Shown here piece by piece: positions 1 through 9,105 of a stretch of 64,000 nt of DNA (position 1 is the first letter of the stretch; each line of letters begins with the position of its first letter). The notes under the pieces were generated by a model. It made no database searches. It was not told the DNA's origin and saw only the letters and a program-made list of their open reading frames with translations. Both the position numbers and the translations under genes were made by a program. Source of the DNA: Bradymonas sediminis (lineage in GTDB: Bacteria > Myxococcota_A > Bradymonadia > Bradymonadales > Bradymonadaceae). The DNA is taken from positions 844,001 through 908,000 of the forward strand of contig NZ_CP030032.1 of assembly GCF_003258315.1 (NCBI RefSeq), given 5' to 3'.

Positions 1-86
1 CGGTGGCGATGCTCACTCCGGTGATGCTGGTTTTAAGTGTCGGGCTCATCGTTTGGACGAAGTCTCCCCAGGGTTTAACGCGTTAA
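1..86 (+). CDS. C-terminal end of a membrane protein (partial)
   Basis: An open frame enters from the left edge and ends at a TAA at 84-86. It encodes 27 residues: a hydrophobic stretch (VAMLTPVMLVLSVGLIVW) and a short polar tail (TKSPQGLTR), as in the last membrane helix of an integral membrane protein. Its end overlaps by 12 bases the end of the convergent lycopene cyclase gene. Family cannot be told from so little; it could also be a chance open frame. Confidence 0.4.
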   Translation, partial: VAMLTPVMLVLSVGLIVWTKSPQGLTR

Positions 87-1358
87 AAATGACGGTCCGC
101 TCGCGCGTAATAGATAGGCCGCTTGCTTGGAAAATCCCGCTCTTGCGAATTGAATCTTTAGCGCCGGTGGAAGGTGGCGAAATACCTCAAGCATCATCTG
201 AGTAATCTCAGCAGGTGAGGCCGTACCGCTCAAATAGGCTGCCCATTGGGCTGGCGCGAGCCTAAAGAATGCATTGAAAAACACACGTGTTTCATCTGCG
301 TTGAGCTTTAATAGTGTTTCGAGGCCAAAAAGCAATAGCTCGCGCGAGCGGCGGGTTGATTGGGGCCAGATCGCCTCGCGACCCGCCGCCACCGCACGCA
401 TCGGGTCGCCGCCGGCGCGCCCAAGTTCCTCGGCGATCGCGAAGGCCAGCGGCTGGGCCGCCTGCAAAGCGCGTCCGACCATATATCCCGTCGCCGGATG
501 AACCATACTCGCCGCGCCGCCAAAGCCGAGGATGAATGGGTTTGAGATGGGCAAATCGAGCCCCATCGGGAACGCAACTCGCTCGGTTTCCAGAACCTCA
601 ACGACTTCCACACCGCGCATCTCAAGGCGCGTTGCGAGTCGGTGCTGAAGGCGCTCGATCTTGAAGGCTGGGCGCGAGGCGAGGACGGTCTCTTCGAGGA
701 AGTAGCGCCCGCCGCCCATATTCATCGCGTATAAAAACGAGGGAGGCTCCGCGAAGGTGGATTCACCATCGATGGCCGAGAAATCCATCAGCGCCATCGA
801 CGCCCCGCCGAGAATTGGGTCCCCTTTGCAATGGGCCATGATGCCCCAGGCGGTTTGCCAGGCGGGGGCGACGCGCGACGCGCGTTTAAGCAGCGCCGGG
901 AAATGTCCCGTCGCGTCGATGACCGCGCGCGCCTCGTAGCAGCGCGGTGATTGATGCGGAGCCGTGGGACTCGCGGCAATTTCGACGCCGCGAGATATGC
1001 GCGCCCAATCTCGAGCGACGCCCGTGAGCCAGGTGATATTGCCGTCTTCTGCCCGCTCGATTAGGCGCGCGATGAGCTTCTTATTATCGAGGCGCGCATA
1101 ACTTCTGGGGAGACGATGAATCGTGTTGGAGCCGGCCACGACGGTCGGTGAATCCCAACAAGTATCGACGCAGTCTTGAAGCCCCAGCGTCTCCAACTCG
1201 TCAAGCCATAGCCCGTAGGTATTGGACCATCGCGGCGGATGCTGGGGCGCGAGACACCCCACCCGCAGCCCGCGCTGGGAAAGCGCCGCCGCCGCGGCGA
1301 GCCCCGCAGGGCCTGCGCCGACCACCAGAATGTCGAATTGAAGAGATGCGTTGTTCAT
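75..1358 (-). CDS. crtY: Lycopene cyclase, FAD/NAD-binding CrtY/CrtL type
   Basis: 427 residues, the usual length for this family. It would close the linear ends of lycopene into ionone rings. The N-terminus has a Rossmann dinucleotide fold (ILVVGAGPAGLAAAAAL, about residues 10-26). Around residues 206-230 lies the family hallmark, FLYAMNM then RYFLEETVLASRP. A second cofactor-binding patch (GFGGAASMVHPATGYMVGRAL) starts near residue 277. The start is the ATG of MNNASLQFDILVV, immediately before the Rossmann strand. It is divergent from the carotenoid hydratase gene, so the two probably share a control region. The CrtL-like (plant/cyanobacterial) flavour is notable in a proteobacterium-like genome. 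The exact ring type (beta, gamma, one or two rings) cannot be read from sequence. Confidence 0.85.
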   Translation of the reverse strand: MNNASLQFDILVVGAGPAGLAAAAALSQRGLRVGCLAPQHPPRWSNTYGLWLDELETLGLQDCVDTCWDSPTVVAGSNTIHRLPRSYARLDNKKLIARLIERAEDGNITWLTGVARDWARISRGVEIAASPTAPHQSPRCYEARAVIDATGHFPALLKRASRVAPAWQTAWGIMAHCKGDPILGGASMALMDFSAIDGESTFAEPPSFLYAMNMGGGRYFLEETVLASRPAFKIERLQHRLATRLEMRGVEVVEVLETERVAFPMGLDLPISNPFILGFGGAASMVHPATGYMVGRALQAAQPLAFAIAEELGRAGGDPMRAVAAGREAIWPQSTRRSRELLLFGLETLLKLNADETRVFFNAFFRLAPAQWAAYLSGTASPAEITQMMLEVFRHLPPALKIQFARAGFSKQAAYLLRASGPSFLTR

Positions 1359-2797: not shown

Positions 2798-4546
2798 TCA
2801 CGCCTCCAAAAGATGCGCCTCGCCGATCTCCAACCATTCCCGCAACACCTCATCATCGGCGTGTTGCACCGCGCGGTCGATAAGCGTCGTGAGGACCTGA
2901 GACTTCAAGTCCGGGTTGCCCGAGATGCCGTTTTTGAGCGCTCGGCGCGTGCTGCGCGCGGCGGCCTCGGGCCACGGGTCGTCGAGCTCTTTGCAGCTCA
3001 AGACTTGCGCGCTCAGCGTCCACCAACCATAGCTTGGCTGCGGGGCGCGGACGATCCAGCGGTCGAAAATCTCGCGGGTTGAGGCGGCGATGCGATGCGT
3101 CGTGGTGGCGTCGCCTTCGGCGTCGCGATGCGCGGCGAGGTAGGCGAAGAGCGACGGCCAGATAAGCCCGATGGGCTTGAGAGCTGCGGGTTGAAGTTGG
3201 GTAATGCGCAACTTTCCTTCCAGGCTCCCGAGGGCGGTGGCCAACTTCGAGGCGTCCTCGGACAGGATGGCGAAGAGGGCGCTTAGCGTGGTGCCGGCGA
3301 GCGGAAAATAGCTTTCGATGCGGCTCAGGTCGTCGGGGTGGGGCGAGGGGATCGGTTTTCCGGCGGCCTGTGCGGCGAAATAATACTCCAGAATCTGGCA
3401 AAAATCGGCGGCCGCCTGTCCCGCAGGCCCCGAGTTCAGCGCCATCTTATCGGCCGGCTCGCCGGCGCGCGTCAGCGGCAAATCGGTGAGGGCGTGCAGC
3501 TGTGTGCGCAGCTCCAAGTTTTTGGCGAGGTGTGCGGCGTCTTCGACCGGCCCGAGCAGGTCGATCAGCTCTTCGAGGCGATCGACTTCGATCGGTTGCA
3601 ATTGCAGGGGCGCCTGCTCGAAAAGATGGCGCGTGGCGAGCTCGAGGTCTGCGTCTTGGCGCGGCGGGGTTTGGGTGGCGCCGCGCGTCGTGCGCGCGCT
3701 CAAGGCGATCACCTGATCAGCCGCGCGCACCCGGTCCAGCCAAAACGAACTATGCGCCATGGCGACGGCATACCAGAGGCGGTCGGCGCGGCTCAACGCC
3801 GGCGCATCAACCTCTCGCAGCAACTCGCGCCCGCGCTCGGGTGCCTCGCCGGAGCGCAACAAAATCGCGCCGCCCCGAAGTCGCGCTCGTTGCGCAAACG
3901 CGCCCATCTCAAGCAACTTCGCGAGCTCCTCGGCGCGCCCAAAATTCTGCCCGATAAATTGCGGCGTACAGACGCTCGGAAGGTTACGCTCGCCCAGATG
4001 GAGCATGCGATCCGCGAAATGCGCGCAGGCGTAATAGCCGAGCGGAGACTCCGGAAAAACGGTGCAGATAAGCTGCGCCAATTTCAGCCCGTTCAGGTGT
4101 TTTTCCTGCTGCTCCGCCAACTCAAAGAGATCGGCCAGCTCCCAGGGCATCGCGCGGCGCTTATTTCTTAAAAACGTTGCCTCACCCTGCGCGTTCGAAA
4201 AATCAGTGGGCCAGGCGCGGGTGGCGTAGCGCTCCATGAGTGATTCAATCGCCGGAATCACCCCCGACACCGGCGCGCTGATGCCGCACCAGGCGCTCGC
4301 CAAAATCAGCTCGCGCCAGGCTGTGGGCGGGATGTCACGGCGCTCTAATTTATCGGCCAGGCCAAGGATTAACTCGGCTGCCTGCGGCCACTCCTGGTGC
4401 TCAATCGCGCGGTCGACCATCGTTAACGCGAAGGCGATGCGCGCGTTGGCGAAGATGCCATCGACCTCATTTAAGAGCGTGTCGAAGGTCGGCTTTTGGG
4501 CGACGCTCGGGGCGCCAGAAGATGCTTCGGGGGCTGTTGAATTCAT
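2798..4546 (-). CDS. Helical-repeat protein at the 3' end of the Hsp70 operon, function unknown
   Basis: 582 residues with no signal peptide or membrane helix. The sequence is rich in Ala, Leu and Glu and reads as stacked alpha-helical hairpins of TPR-like type (for example DRAIEHQEWPQAAELILGLA near residue 45), but no clean motif series is visible. Its ATG overlaps the TGA of the upstream Hsp70 gene as ATGA, so the two are translationally coupled. I do not recognise the family. The position suggests a client adaptor or scaffold for the neighbouring Hsp70. The ATG at 4546 fits the coupling. Confidence 0.6.
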   Translation of the reverse strand: MNSTAPEASSGAPSVAQKPTFDTLLNEVDGIFANARIAFALTMVDRAIEHQEWPQAAELILGLADKLERRDIPPTAWRELILASAWCGISAPVSGVIPAIESLMERYATRAWPTDFSNAQGEATFLRNKRRAMPWELADLFELAEQQEKHLNGLKLAQLICTVFPESPLGYYACAHFADRMLHLGERNLPSVCTPQFIGQNFGRAEELAKLLEMGAFAQRARLRGGAILLRSGEAPERGRELLREVDAPALSRADRLWYAVAMAHSSFWLDRVRAADQVIALSARTTRGATQTPPRQDADLELATRHLFEQAPLQLQPIEVDRLEELIDLLGPVEDAAHLAKNLELRTQLHALTDLPLTRAGEPADKMALNSGPAGQAAADFCQILEYYFAAQAAGKPIPSPHPDDLSRIESYFPLAGTTLSALFAILSEDASKLATALGSLEGKLRITQLQPAALKPIGLIWPSLFAYLAAHRDAEGDATTTHRIAASTREIFDRWIVRAPQPSYGWWTLSAQVLSCKELDDPWPEAAARSTRRALKNGISGNPDLKSQVLTTLIDRAVQHADDEVLREWLEIGEAHLLEA

Positions 4547-7182
4547 CGTCGCACCAATCCCAGGGTTGAAAGTTCGACGACACGTTTCTCCAGTCGCGTG
4601 GCGGTCTCGGCGAGCTTGGCGAGCTGCGGTTTGACCACGGCGGTGTCGGCGTGTGTGTCGATTAATTTGAGCGGGTCTTCGAGCTCGTCTTCGAGGTCGG
4701 CCTTCAGGCGCATAATCTCGCGGCGCTGAAGATTCGCGGTGTCCGGATTGCTCGAAAGCGTGAACGCATCGACGGTCTTTTTAAGCTCCTCGCATTGATG
4801 GCTCAGGCCGAAATGAAGCTTCTGCACATACTCGGTTGTGTTCGTCGATTTGAAGCGAAATTCGTCCTGCGCGAGGCTCTCCCAGGTCGCCTGGATCTGG
4901 TCGAAGGTCTGTCGCCAGCCCTCCTGGTCACGCGCCTTCCACGCCTCATTGGCGTCTTTTTCGATGCTGGCCAGGTGCTGATGCCACTCGTCGATGCTGC
5001 GCCCAAGGGGGCGCGCCTCGGCGTCGCGATAGGCCACGCGTTTGATGGCGTTGAGCAGCGTCGTATAGCGCGAATAGGCCGGCGAAAGATCGGTCTGGCG
5101 GTTCTGATAATCCTCCATGACCGTCTCGAGGCGGCGCACCAAAACCTGCAATTTGTCGGGGTCGGTGCGCGCGGTTTCGTGGATGCCGGCGATCAAAAAA
5201 TCGACGCGTTTTGCGAAGCTCCTTTGCTCAAGTCCCCACAGCTTTTGACGAATCGCGGCGGTGGTATCAAGCAGGGCTTCGATCTCCTCCCAATTGCGCA
5301 GCGCCTGAGCCGGCGGCGGGGCGATCTCGGCCGAAAACTCCTGCCCATTTACATCGCCATTGGCGACGATGGCCATCGTTTCGTCGACATCAATCCGTAG
5401 GTTGACCGGCGTGCCGAGCTCGGTATCGTCCGGAATCTCGAGGTGAATCGTGCGAATCGGATAGCGATTCTGAAAGAGTCGCAAGAGCACCGCGCCGGAG
5501 CGGTCGGCGGTAAAGAAGCGGAACTCCTGGCGGGTCGGAAGACTCGTGCCGCGCGGGACGAGCAAAACCCGGTCGGGCGCCGAGTCGCCGGCGACCTCCA
5601 AATAGATATCTTTGGCCAGCACGCTCGGGTTCGACAGCGCGCTGCCGGTGGGGCGATAGGGCGCGTCGTCGGCGAGGCGCTGCATAAAGATCGGGAAGGC
5701 CACCAGCGCCTCGCCGGACTCCTGGCAAAACTCGAGCACGAAGTCATGGCGCCCCTCATCGCGAAGCGTCACCGCGTCGAATTCGAAGCGAATTTGCTCG
5801 CCGGGGACGCTGAGCGCGTCCGCCCGGCAGATGCTCGCGATCTCGCCGCCGGGCGTCGCCAGGGCGACCGTGGTGACATCCCTGGGCACCGGGCCTTCGA
5901 GAAATCCGATAAGATGCGTGGTCTCGCTGCGGGTCGACAGCGACGAGGTCACGGTCAACTTGAGGGGATCTTCGTCTTCGGCGTCTTTTGGCTGCACCCA
6001 TTGGACGCCGCTGAGGTTGGCGGCGTGGATCGCCGCGCCGAGCGCCACGCAGGTATCCGGCTCATCGATCAGCGGGCGCTCGCCGCGCGCCCCGTCGGGG
6101 CCGCAAAGCGCCGCGGCGATCCGCTCTTGCACGCGCGGCACATGGGTCGAGCCGCCGACGAGCAGGACATAGTCGATATCGCTCAGCTCGACGTCGGCCT
6201 GCTCCTTGGATTGAGCCAGCGCGCGGGTGCAGGCCTCAAGGCTCTGGTCGATGAGGTCTTCGATAAGTTCTTCGAATTCGACCCGCCCGATCTCGAGGTC
6301 GAGCGTCACTGATTGCGCCGCCTGATCCTCGAAGATATCGCGCCGCCCGACATATTGAACCTCGCTGCTGGTCAGCGCCTCTTTGACCTCGCGGGCGATG
6401 CGCTCCAGGAGCGTAAAACGCAGGCGGTCGTCGGCGTTGTTGGCCACGTCGAGCTCGAGCTTATAGCCCTGCTCGACCAGGTGTTTGCGCAACTTCTCGG
6501 CCAGGCGTCGGTCGAAATCATCGCCCCCCAAGAAGTTGTCGCCATCGACGGCCAGCACCTGATACTCGCCCATCAACGAGCGAATAATCGAGACGTCGAA
6601 GGTGCCGCCGCCCAGGTCATAGACCAGAAAATTGCCGTCGCCGATGCCATTCTTAAAGGCGTAATACATGGCGGCCGCGGTCGGCTCTTGCAAGAGCCCC
6701 AGGACCTCGATGCCGGCCAACTCACCGGCGACGCGCGTCGCCTCAATCTGCGGCGCGTCGAAATAGGCCGGGACCGTGATAACCGCGCGATCGATGCGCA
6801 AATGGTGGGCGCCTTGTGGGTCGCGCTCGCTCTCGAGCGCATCCAAACTCTCAACGAAATCGCGCATTTGCACGACCAGGTGCTCGATGGTCTTTGCCGA
6901 GACTTCCTCGGGCAACATATTATGCGGACCGACCTCGACGCGCTCCTGGGAGCCCATCTTTCGCTTGATCGACGCGATGGGTTGAGGCTGCAACACGCGG
7001 CGATTCCAGGCGCGATGCCCCAGCACGAAGTCCGCGCTCTCGGGGTTCCAGCCGACCATCGACGGCACGGTTTTTCGGCGCAGGCGATCCTGGAGCAGCA
7101 CAATATCGTCGCCCTCCGGGCGCATCACGGCGATGGCTGAGTTGGTGGTGCCAAGGTCGATACCAGCAGGGCGGTTGATCAT
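4543..7182 (-). CDS. Large Hsp70-family chaperone (DnaK/HscC-like)
   Basis: 879 residues from the MINRPAGIDLG start, against about 640 in DnaK. The ATPase domain is intact: phosphate loop GIDLGTTNSAIAV at 6-18, VITVPAYFDAPQIEATRVAG, LVYDLGGGTFDVS, and the adenosine motif VLLVGGSTHVPRVQ. The interdomain linker does not match the canonical VLLLDV; the segment there reads DPLKLTVTSSLS. The beta-rich substrate domain is diverged. A helical C-terminal extension of some 300 residues (ending VVELSTLGLVRR) replaces the DnaK lid. An open frame extends upstream to 7224, but the ATG at 7182 sits right before the first ATPase strand. Upstream lies a small J-like gene and downstream, overlapping, a helical-repeat gene. 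This is a dedicated chaperone rather than the housekeeping DnaK; no grpE or dnaJ is adjacent. Confidence 0.85.
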   Translation of the reverse strand: MINRPAGIDLGTTNSAIAVMRPEGDDIVLLQDRLRRKTVPSMVGWNPESADFVLGHRAWNRRVLQPQPIASIKRKMGSQERVEVGPHNMLPEEVSAKTIEHLVVQMRDFVESLDALESERDPQGAHHLRIDRAVITVPAYFDAPQIEATRVAGELAGIEVLGLLQEPTAAAMYYAFKNGIGDGNFLVYDLGGGTFDVSIIRSLMGEYQVLAVDGDNFLGGDDFDRRLAEKLRKHLVEQGYKLELDVANNADDRLRFTLLERIAREVKEALTSSEVQYVGRRDIFEDQAAQSVTLDLEIGRVEFEELIEDLIDQSLEACTRALAQSKEQADVELSDIDYVLLVGGSTHVPRVQERIAAALCGPDGARGERPLIDEPDTCVALGAAIHAANLSGVQWVQPKDAEDEDPLKLTVTSSLSTRSETTHLIGFLEGPVPRDVTTVALATPGGEIASICRADALSVPGEQIRFEFDAVTLRDEGRHDFVLEFCQESGEALVAFPIFMQRLADDAPYRPTGSALSNPSVLAKDIYLEVAGDSAPDRVLLVPRGTSLPTRQEFRFFTADRSGAVLLRLFQNRYPIRTIHLEIPDDTELGTPVNLRIDVDETMAIVANGDVNGQEFSAEIAPPPAQALRNWEEIEALLDTTAAIRQKLWGLEQRSFAKRVDFLIAGIHETARTDPDKLQVLVRRLETVMEDYQNRQTDLSPAYSRYTTLLNAIKRVAYRDAEARPLGRSIDEWHQHLASIEKDANEAWKARDQEGWRQTFDQIQATWESLAQDEFRFKSTNTTEYVQKLHFGLSHQCEELKKTVDAFTLSSNPDTANLQRREIMRLKADLEDELEDPLKLIDTHADTAVVKPQLAKLAETATRLEKRVVELSTLGLVRR

Positions 7183-7243
7183 GGTTCGAGTCGCGTGTTG
7201 GAGGTTAAAAGTGTGCGCAAACAAGCAAGCGGTCGGGGCCGAG

Positions 7244-7684
7244 TCAGGAGGTCGTATCGGTCGCGAGCCCCTCGGCCTTGATGCTCATAAATCCCGAATC
7301 GGGCCGCAATTTCGCGTCGATCTGCAGGCCGCCCGGGTTATTGGAGTCGCCGAATTCGAGCAGCGCGTCGAAGACGGTCGCCGCGAACTTCGCGTCATCT
7401 TTGAGCGCAGCGCCGGCACGCGTGGGCGGAATCTGGCGGCGCAACGCGTCGATGCTCTCGGAGCTTCCCGGGTGGGCAAAAAACGCCAATTTGATGCGCT
7501 CCGAATCCTTGATCGTCAGCTCACGCCAGATGGCGCGAACCTCGTCGCGCTTCTCGGGCGTCAAGCGCTCGGCCATGCGCTGCAGGCGCTCGGTGAGCTG
7601 GGCCGGGCTCAGGCTCGGGTCGAGCCCCAGGCGGTCAAAGGGGTTCTGATAGGCCGGATTGTCAGGATTCTCGCGATCACTCAT
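7244..7684 (-). CDS. Small J-domain-like protein lacking the HPD motif
   Basis: 146 residues. Residues ~13-75 fit the helix layout of a J domain: NPFDRLGLDPSLSPAQLTERL resembles helices I-II of a DnaJ, and RDEVRAIWRELTIKDSERIKL resembles helix III and the following turn. The HPD tripeptide that triggers Hsp70 ATP hydrolysis is missing; the equivalent place reads LTP. The rest is a short acidic tail. Its ATG overlaps the TGA of the upstream TPR-like gene (ATGA), and the Hsp70 starts 61 bases downstream. The J-like assignment is my inference from pattern and context; the protein may be a J-like antagonist, a tethering subunit or an unrelated helical protein. Confidence 0.55.
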   Translation of the reverse strand: MSDRENPDNPAYQNPFDRLGLDPSLSPAQLTERLQRMAERLTPEKRDEVRAIWRELTIKDSERIKLAFFAHPGSSESIDALRRQIPPTRAGAALKDDAKFAATVFDALLEFGDSNNPGGLQIDAKLRPDSGFMSIKAEGLATDTTS

Positions 7685-9105
7685 CGGGTCTTCTCCGTGC
7701 CCAGGCGCTTGGCCTCGTGGGCGAGTTGCTGGCGATATTCGTCGATCTTATCGTTGGACGGGTAGAGCGATTCCGCCTGCTCGAGTAACTCCCAGGCTTC
7801 GGCGATGGCTGTCTCGACCCGCGTCGCCGTGCCCGGCAACATCGTGATCGCCGAGGGGACCATGCGCACGCGCAAGAGCAGGTCGCTGAGGTTTAATAAC
7901 TTCTCATAAGACAGCATCATCGAGGCGTTTCGGTGCCCCGGGCAAACCTTAATCGCGCGCTCAAAAAACGCATCACGTCCCTTCGAGCGCGAGCGATGCT
8001 CGCCGCGAAATACCAAAAAGTCCGCGCAGGTCGAGTTCTGCCCAAACGCCTGGCCGTCCAGGATAAACGCCTCAAGCGCGTCGTTAAACGGGCGCGCAGC
8101 GCTGAGCAGTCTTTTCATCCATTTGTCGAGCTCGTCGGGGCCGAGTTTTCGCAGCTTCCAGCCGATGTCGACCGCCGCGTCGCTCACCCGTGCGGCGACC
8201 GACGCGTCGATGGGCAAAATCTCGAAGATGGCGTCCGCCCAGTTAAACGGAGCGAGCAACGCGTCGATATTTGGCGCGCTCAAATCAAGCGCGTCGATCA
8301 TGCGGGCGAATTGGCGAAGCAGCGCGGCTTGGGTGTCGCCGAGGTCACGCGCGACCGCGTCGCCGAGGCCAATCAGCGCCGGCTCTTCGCTCCCCGAAGC
8401 CTTGATTTGCGCGGCGAGGTGCGTCAGCGCCTGCCAGGCGAAGCGGGTTTTTTGAAGGTCGACAGCGGTTGGGTTTGCCGCGTTTTCCAGGCTGAGCCCG
8501 CTGCGCAATTGGGCCGCGCGCGCCGCGATGATGGGCTCCAGAAGTTGCTCGCGCGTCTGCGCTTTTGTGGCGCCCATGCCCTTTAGCCAGGCGTCCAGAT
8601 AATCTGAGCTCAGCACCCGCAGCCAGGCGGCGACGCTCTCGGTCCAAAAATATTCGGCGGACTCGAAATCCTTCGCGGCGACCGCCTCATCGCAAAAACG
8701 CCCGAAGAGAAGGGCGTGGTGGTGGTCTGTGCGGGGCGACCAGCCGGCGGCGACGGCTTTTGACCATAATTGGAGCCAGTCAGCGGCCAGGCGCGTCCCG
8801 GATTTTTTGGGATCTTCGGCGAGCGCCTCGACCCGCGGGCCGATGACCTGCCAGCCGGGGTCTGTGACGATGGACTCGACCCAATCGCGCAGGATGCGCG
8901 GGTCATCTTTGCGCGCCTTCGACCGACCTCTAGACAAGCAATGGATGAGCGTCGGGACGAGGGTTTTGGCGCGCAGCGCGGCCAATAACCTGCGCTTGGG
9001 CGAGCGCTCGGGGAGGTTCTGGGGCGTTGTAATATGCCGCGGCTTCAAATTCGCTGCCTCGGTGAGTGGGGTGAATTCGAATGAGATTAACGTCAGGAGC
9101 GCCAC
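7681..9105 (-). CDS. TPR-like helical protein of the Hsp70 operon, function unknown
   Basis: 474 residues, cytoplasmic in appearance. Repeated helical hairpins occur, including FFERAIKVCPGHRNASMMLS near residue 385 and AWELLEQAESLYPSNDKIDE near the C-terminus, typical of tetratricopeptide repeats. The annotated start is a GTG at 9105 with no clear Shine-Dalgarno, only 13 bases after the stop of holA, so it may be read through from holA. A start further inside is possible. It overlaps the J-like gene by ATGA. Function is unknown. Its tight coupling to the J-like and Hsp70 genes suggests that it delivers clients or localises the chaperone. Confidence 0.6.
   Translation of the reverse strand: MALLTLISFEFTPLTEAANLKPRHITTPQNLPERSPKRRLLAALRAKTLVPTLIHCLSRGRSKARKDDPRILRDWVESIVTDPGWQVIGPRVEALAEDPKKSGTRLAADWLQLWSKAVAAGWSPRTDHHHALLFGRFCDEAVAAKDFESAEYFWTESVAAWLRVLSSDYLDAWLKGMGATKAQTREQLLEPIIAARAAQLRSGLSLENAANPTAVDLQKTRFAWQALTHLAAQIKASGSEEPALIGLGDAVARDLGDTQAALLRQFARMIDALDLSAPNIDALLAPFNWADAIFEILPIDASVAARVSDAAVDIGWKLRKLGPDELDKWMKRLLSAARPFNDALEAFILDGQAFGQNSTCADFLVFRGEHRSRSKGRDAFFERAIKVCPGHRNASMMLSYEKLLNLSDLLLRVRMVPSAITMLPGTATRVETAIAEAWELLEQAESLYPSNDKIDEYRQQLAHEAKRLGTEKTR

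Follow-up and report, generated by a model that had tools for sequence, protein, structure and literature searches.

A conserved gene cassette of Myxococcota pairing an atypical Hsp70 with a J-like protein without the HPD motif

In the DnaK-DnaJ system, residue R167 of DnaK contacts the aspartate of the HPD motif, linking HPD to the linker and SBD (PMC7289447, PMC13012618), and F47 of DnaJ is among the residues which contact residues of the DnaK NBD and linker (PMC13012618). A specialised bacterial Hsp70 with its own dedicated J partners is described in E. coli, in the form of HscC with DjlB and DjlC, and DjlC was reported to stimulate HscC (PMC8215388). J folds without a functional HPD occur in mitochondrial Pam16 (Tim16) and trypanosome TbPam18 (PMC11349236). 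In yeast RAC (Zuo1-Ssz1) an atypical Hsp70 is paired with a J-type protein (PMC8476630), and Shewanella AtcJ is a J protein of short length which has dedicated partners (PMC6715715).

The cassette described here consists of four genes, designated A, J, K and H, in which K encodes an atypical Hsp70 and J a J-like protein. Like the HscC system, it joins a specialised bacterial Hsp70 to a dedicated J-type partner, but HscC is 556 amino acids long, has no inserted beta domain and keeps R151, R167 and N170, and K falls in a clade separate from it. K and J share with DnaK-DnaJ the order of NBD, SBD-beta and helical region, the ATP residues and the J-like fold of the partner, whereas HPD, R167, R151, N170 and the linker are missing, an extra beta domain is present and the tail is much longer. 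Pam16 and TbPam18, which J resembles in its fold, are membrane-linked, eukaryotic proteins whose Hsp70 retains the standard switch, whereas in the cassette both sides of the contact are changed. In RAC, the J domain of Zuo1 still works and serves a third partner, Ssb, while the cassette encodes no third Hsp70 and K retains its ATP residues; for AtcJ, the difference lies in a functional J domain and in DnaK as its Hsp70.

Gene layout and genomic setting

The four minus-strand genes, in the order A, J, K, H, occupy positions 2798-9105 of the window (the whole stretch of 64,000 nucleotides of Bradymonas sediminis DNA which was analysed), in a genome consisting of a single contig of 5,045,683 bp. 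Gene A (7681-9105, minus strand) encodes 474 amino acids from a GTG start and overlaps gene J (7244-7684, minus strand; 146 amino acids) by ATGA. A spacing of 61 bp separates J from gene K (4543-7182, minus strand; 879 amino acids from the ATG at 7182), which in turn overlaps gene H (2798-4546, minus strand) by ATGA; H is a helical protein of 582 amino acids. The open reading frames therefore bore out the gene lengths, overlaps and spacing given in an initial annotation of this DNA, including its 582-residue helical protein.

Upstream of A, at a distance of 13 bases and in the same orientation, is holA, a gene which also precedes A in several relatives. Promoter and terminator scans at the cassette gave signals near background. 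No Pfam family was found above its cutoff for A, J or H, and plain family searches with these three proteins returned nothing above cutoffs. An anti-phage defence system was considered and rejected, as no PADLOC model matched any of the four proteins. A description of the cassette was not found in the literature, in a search which covered openly licensed papers. A lycopene cyclase gene (Pfam, 2.2e-72) and, next to it, a 401-amino-acid open reading frame with no Pfam match occupy window positions 75-1358 and 1533-2738, convergent with the cassette.

The Hsp70-like protein K

The NBD of K (residues 1-395; 5998-7182, minus strand) matched the Pfam family HSP70 (PF00012, 2.7e-71) and gave structure matches to Hsp70 NBDs with Z values of about 35-37. 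In the K model the DnaK linker is replaced by a beta domain of approximately 115 residues (residues 396-512; 5647-5997, minus strand), with predicted strands between residues 408 and 502. An SBD-beta was placed at residues 513-625 (5308-5646, minus strand) by hhalign and structure alignment: this region scored 27.0 against the SBD by hhalign, compared to 14.5 for the 396-512 insert, for which hhalign indicated no SBD similarity, and the structure alignment of K with DnaK extended to model residue 622. The motif RGTxLP...TAD.SGAV...QNR is retained in the SBD-beta, and this core motif aligns to DnaK. The remainder (residues 626-879; 4546-5307, minus strand) is a tail of nine predicted helices; a sequence search of solved structures with the K C-terminal profile returned only apolipoprotein and coiled-coil noise. 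K thus has the features that place a protein in the Hsp70 superfamily, namely an NBD with ATP motifs and catalytic residues and an SBD-beta, while those of DnaK-type allostery (a hydrophobic linker and the R167/R151 switch) were absent. The 879-residue Hsp70 with a non-DnaK linker and a long helical tail, as first annotated, was seen in all three respects.

In a tree of NBDs the K tips formed one clade (support 0.992), which a long branch separated from the DnaK, HscA and HscC of E. coli, and K fell far under the cutoffs of the NCBIfam equivalogs. Assignment of K as HscC, HscA or DnaK was rejected on the basis of this separate clade and of differing residues.

Residues were compared between 35 K proteins and 49 other Hsp70s sampled from the Bradymonas sediminis genome and its relatives. 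The equivalent of DnaK R167 was kept in none of the 35 K proteins (G, A or S instead), nor was that of R151 (I, V, A or M), while N170 and E217 were each replaced by Q in 35/35; in the window K protein these positions are G162, I146, Q165 and Q208, respectively. The other Hsp70s, by comparison, kept R167 in 47/49, N170 in 47/49 and R151 in 49/49, and all three residues are retained in E. coli DnaK, HscA and HscC. The ATP residues of K were conserved, with the T199 and E171 equivalents present in all 35 proteins and that of K70 in 34 (T194, E166 and K73 in the window protein).

Other Hsp70-like genes were observed in the course of the analysis. In the Bradymonas sediminis genome a 735-amino-acid frame (L121/L003, G000:C1:3494042-3496789), with a weak J domain carrying HPD, lies directly before a short Hsp70 which is an open frame of only 519 amino acids; similar Hsp70s of approximately 515-540 amino acids are present in many relatives. 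Two Hsp70-like proteins of relatives (L179 and L183), outside the K clade, have A and Q at the R167 position.

The J-like protein and its neighbours A and H

A profile of J homologues scored 25.6 by hhalign against a reference profile of real J domains, taken mostly from the same genomes; by comparison, the score was 5-9 for reversed profiles and did not exceed 15.8 for shuffled profiles or 17.9 for 47 unrelated windows. Two J homologues matched Pfam DnaJ directly (best E 0.0087), while the window J protein itself gave no Pfam DnaJ match. The AlphaFold2 model of J was modest overall (mean pLDDT 68, pTM 0.46), with a good J-like part and a disordered tail, and contained helices at residues 15-19, 27-40, 43-58 and 60-70 (DSSP). 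No significant match to the model was found with Foldseek. The top structure alignments were to J domains, with Z values up to 5.7 (unrelated rows, at most 3.6): the Tetrahymena J1 subunit, a J-domain protein (5.7), CbpA (5.5), C. elegans dnj-12 (5.2), DNAJB8 (5.1) and Thermus DnaJ (4.2). Profile and model together support a J fold for J, with helices I-IV and an antiparallel II/III pair, and fall short of proof because the Z values are moderate. The J-like identity originally proposed was therefore supported, and a predicted fold unrelated to the J domain, named at the outset as a refuting result, was not what the model gave.

The HPD motif was missing from the loop between helices II and III in 36/36 J homologues; an HPD string does occur in two of them, further on, in the III-IV turn, and is not equivalent. 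In the window J protein the canonical HPD site, between helix II (27-40) and helix III (43-58), is shortened in the model and alignment to about two residues (41-42; 7559-7564, minus strand). The sequence LTP was initially said to stand where HPD should be: the profile alignment does set LTP against HPD, yet the homologues do not conserve it and it is incidental, since the loop which would carry HPD has itself been shortened.

Positions of J and DnaJ were mapped by counting helix III back from W53 (equivalent to DnaJ Y54) and aligning helix II likewise. By this mapping an invariant threonine, T31, lies at the position of DnaJ R22, and a nearly invariant arginine, R46, at that of DnaJ F47, a linker-contacting residue, while K is without such a linker. 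This placement is no more than suggestive of a remodelled docking face.

Degenerate J domains are common in the Bradymonas sediminis genome, where J-domain matches at G000:C1 2162356, 2098553 and 921844 (L116, L119 and L120) read HAD, DPD and DPA, respectively, in place of HPD. A large protein of another genome (L050:8491-9387, G025), outside the cassette, has a degenerate J domain and was a weak match to the J query. In E. coli DjlC (L199:1713-3164) the J domain, close to the N terminus, has HPE instead of HPD, although stimulation of HscC by this protein was reported (PMC8215388).

Homologues of A align only from about residue 37-40, so the true start of A may lie further in. A conserved HRNA motif was found near its C-terminal repeats. 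The protein is helical and weakly TPR-like, as had been suggested, but the TPR label rests on weak TPR_2 matches in 4/21 homologues (best E 0.0014). H is homologous to the gene which follows K in distant Myxococcota (97% probability, E 5e-11 by hhalign against that divergent family), while A gave less than 1% against both H and the same family.

Distribution and interpretation of the cassette

The order A-J-K-H was repeated in many relatives with ATGA overlaps or short gaps, which argues that the cassette is more than a chance arrangement. J was found in 21/95 relatives in a first search. In a phylum survey of 377 genomes drawn from Myxococcota, matches were obtained in 43 genomes with the K C-terminal profile, in 41 with the J profile and in 42 with the A profile (3 weak), and comparison of the match lists showed that strong A, J and K matches fell in an identical set of 39 genomes. 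K was seen without J in four genomes (G008, G012, G098 and G318), where K was fragmentary, had only a partial frame, matched weakly or lay on a short contig ending within the gene, and J without K in two, where a contig end cuts J (G024) or the match was weak (G347). In four genomes of one family (f2) A was present but J-K lay on another contig, and no functional neighbour of A was evident there; in G021 and G022 approximately 9 kb upstream of J was present, without A. This indicates that co-inheritance does not follow from adjacency alone. The co-occurrence of A, J and K is confounded by shared ancestry. H or a distant homologue was found near K in 31 of the 36 loci holding downstream sequence, mostly directly after K, and on the strand of K in 29 of these 31.

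When contigs spanning all phyla were searched with one pattern, 11 loci were matched, with titles of Myxococcota or loosely classified proteobacterial assemblies; Lujinxingia was among the named relatives. No K tail was found on plasmids. The genes thus stay together in relatives, and the opposite result, named in the initial annotation as a refutation, was not observed.

A matched loss in J and K is supported by sequence and predicted structure and, as the two proteins have lost matching halves of the contact which activates an Hsp70, the cassette is probably controlled differently. The reading we favour, with a probability of roughly 45%, is that of a dedicated Myxococcota Hsp70 machine in which docking and regulation by the J-like subunit need no HPD-arginine switch. 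A little more tentatively, both halves of that switch, nearly universal elsewhere, may have been lost together in favour of another allosteric route, possibly through the linker insert. By sequence and prediction K keeps an intact ATP-hydrolysing NBD, the SBD-beta and the helical tail, with the receivers and relays of the HPD signal gone, and J retains the J-type helices without an HPD loop. In such a machine J, by homology, would use its ancestral helix II/III face to dock on K, the contacts there having been remodelled. Control of the ATPase may have shifted to J-K contacts, the inserted domain, the client or a mixture of these; A, whose translation in most genomes is coupled to that of J, may present clients or target J, and H may be a second helical adaptor on K.

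The initial annotation had argued from the missing HPD that the cassette may work by another rule, and had suggested a client-specific machine. Loss of HPD alone is no proof of a new rule, since J-like proteins considered to be independent of Hsp70 are known (PMC11349236); it is the matched loss in the linked Hsp70, and not the absence of HPD, which sets the cassette apart. The idea is strengthened because K has also lost the arginine which would receive the HPD aspartate. The J-like protein, the atypical Hsp70 and the conserved cassette all stand, but "client-specific" was not borne out, no client or phenotype having been found.

It is possible, although we consider it unlikely, that J, in the manner of Pam16, serves as a structural or inhibitory subunit which holds K in a complex with A and H and never stimulates ATP hydrolysis, the rate being set by clients or by K's own domains. 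In the mitochondrial motor the HPD-less J-like proteins do not act as stimulators, independence of Hsp70 is assumed for TbPam18 and TbPam16 (PMC11349236), and HPD is wholly absent in the J family; J and K are, however, adjacent and co-inherited, and the contact has also changed on the side of K, a change that a passive tether would not call for. That K is an ATP-dependent switch or scaffold and not a chaperone, like other non-DnaK Hsp70 proteins of myxobacteria which have regulatory roles, and that its state is read out by A, J and H, seems improbable given the recognisable SBD-beta and motif retained in K, even though K is separated from DnaK, HscA and HscC by a long branch and non-canonical Hsp70s are numerous in myxobacteria, where the tested ones influence sporulation and resistance to oxidation (PMC8265645) and StkA affects exopolysaccharide (PMC4319316).

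Stimulation of K by a canonical J-domain protein encoded elsewhere, with J only a helper, would be consistent with the ten J-domain matches of the Bradymonas sediminis genome, several with HPD, and with the rescue of a DnaK R167A mutant by DnaJ D35N (PMC13012618), but is very improbable, since a standard HPD would meet no receiver on a K altered at R167, R151, N170, E217 and the linker alike. Most doubtful of all is a chance helical-hairpin likeness with J not a J relative, as the Foldseek result, the middling Z values and the lack of a Pfam DnaJ match for the window protein would allow, against a profile match in the correct register which beats all controls, the two homologues matching Pfam DnaJ, J domains as top structure rows and an adjoining Hsp70 gene.

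J-Hsp70 coupling is regarded as having an invariant core, made up of the HPD motif and the arginine of the Hsp70. A natural pair without both, with the J framework and the ATPase kept, could test which parts of the mechanism are truly required. K adds a conserved, unnamed Hsp70 type beside the DnaK, HscA and HscC discussed for bacteria, in a phylum known for its predatory and social members.
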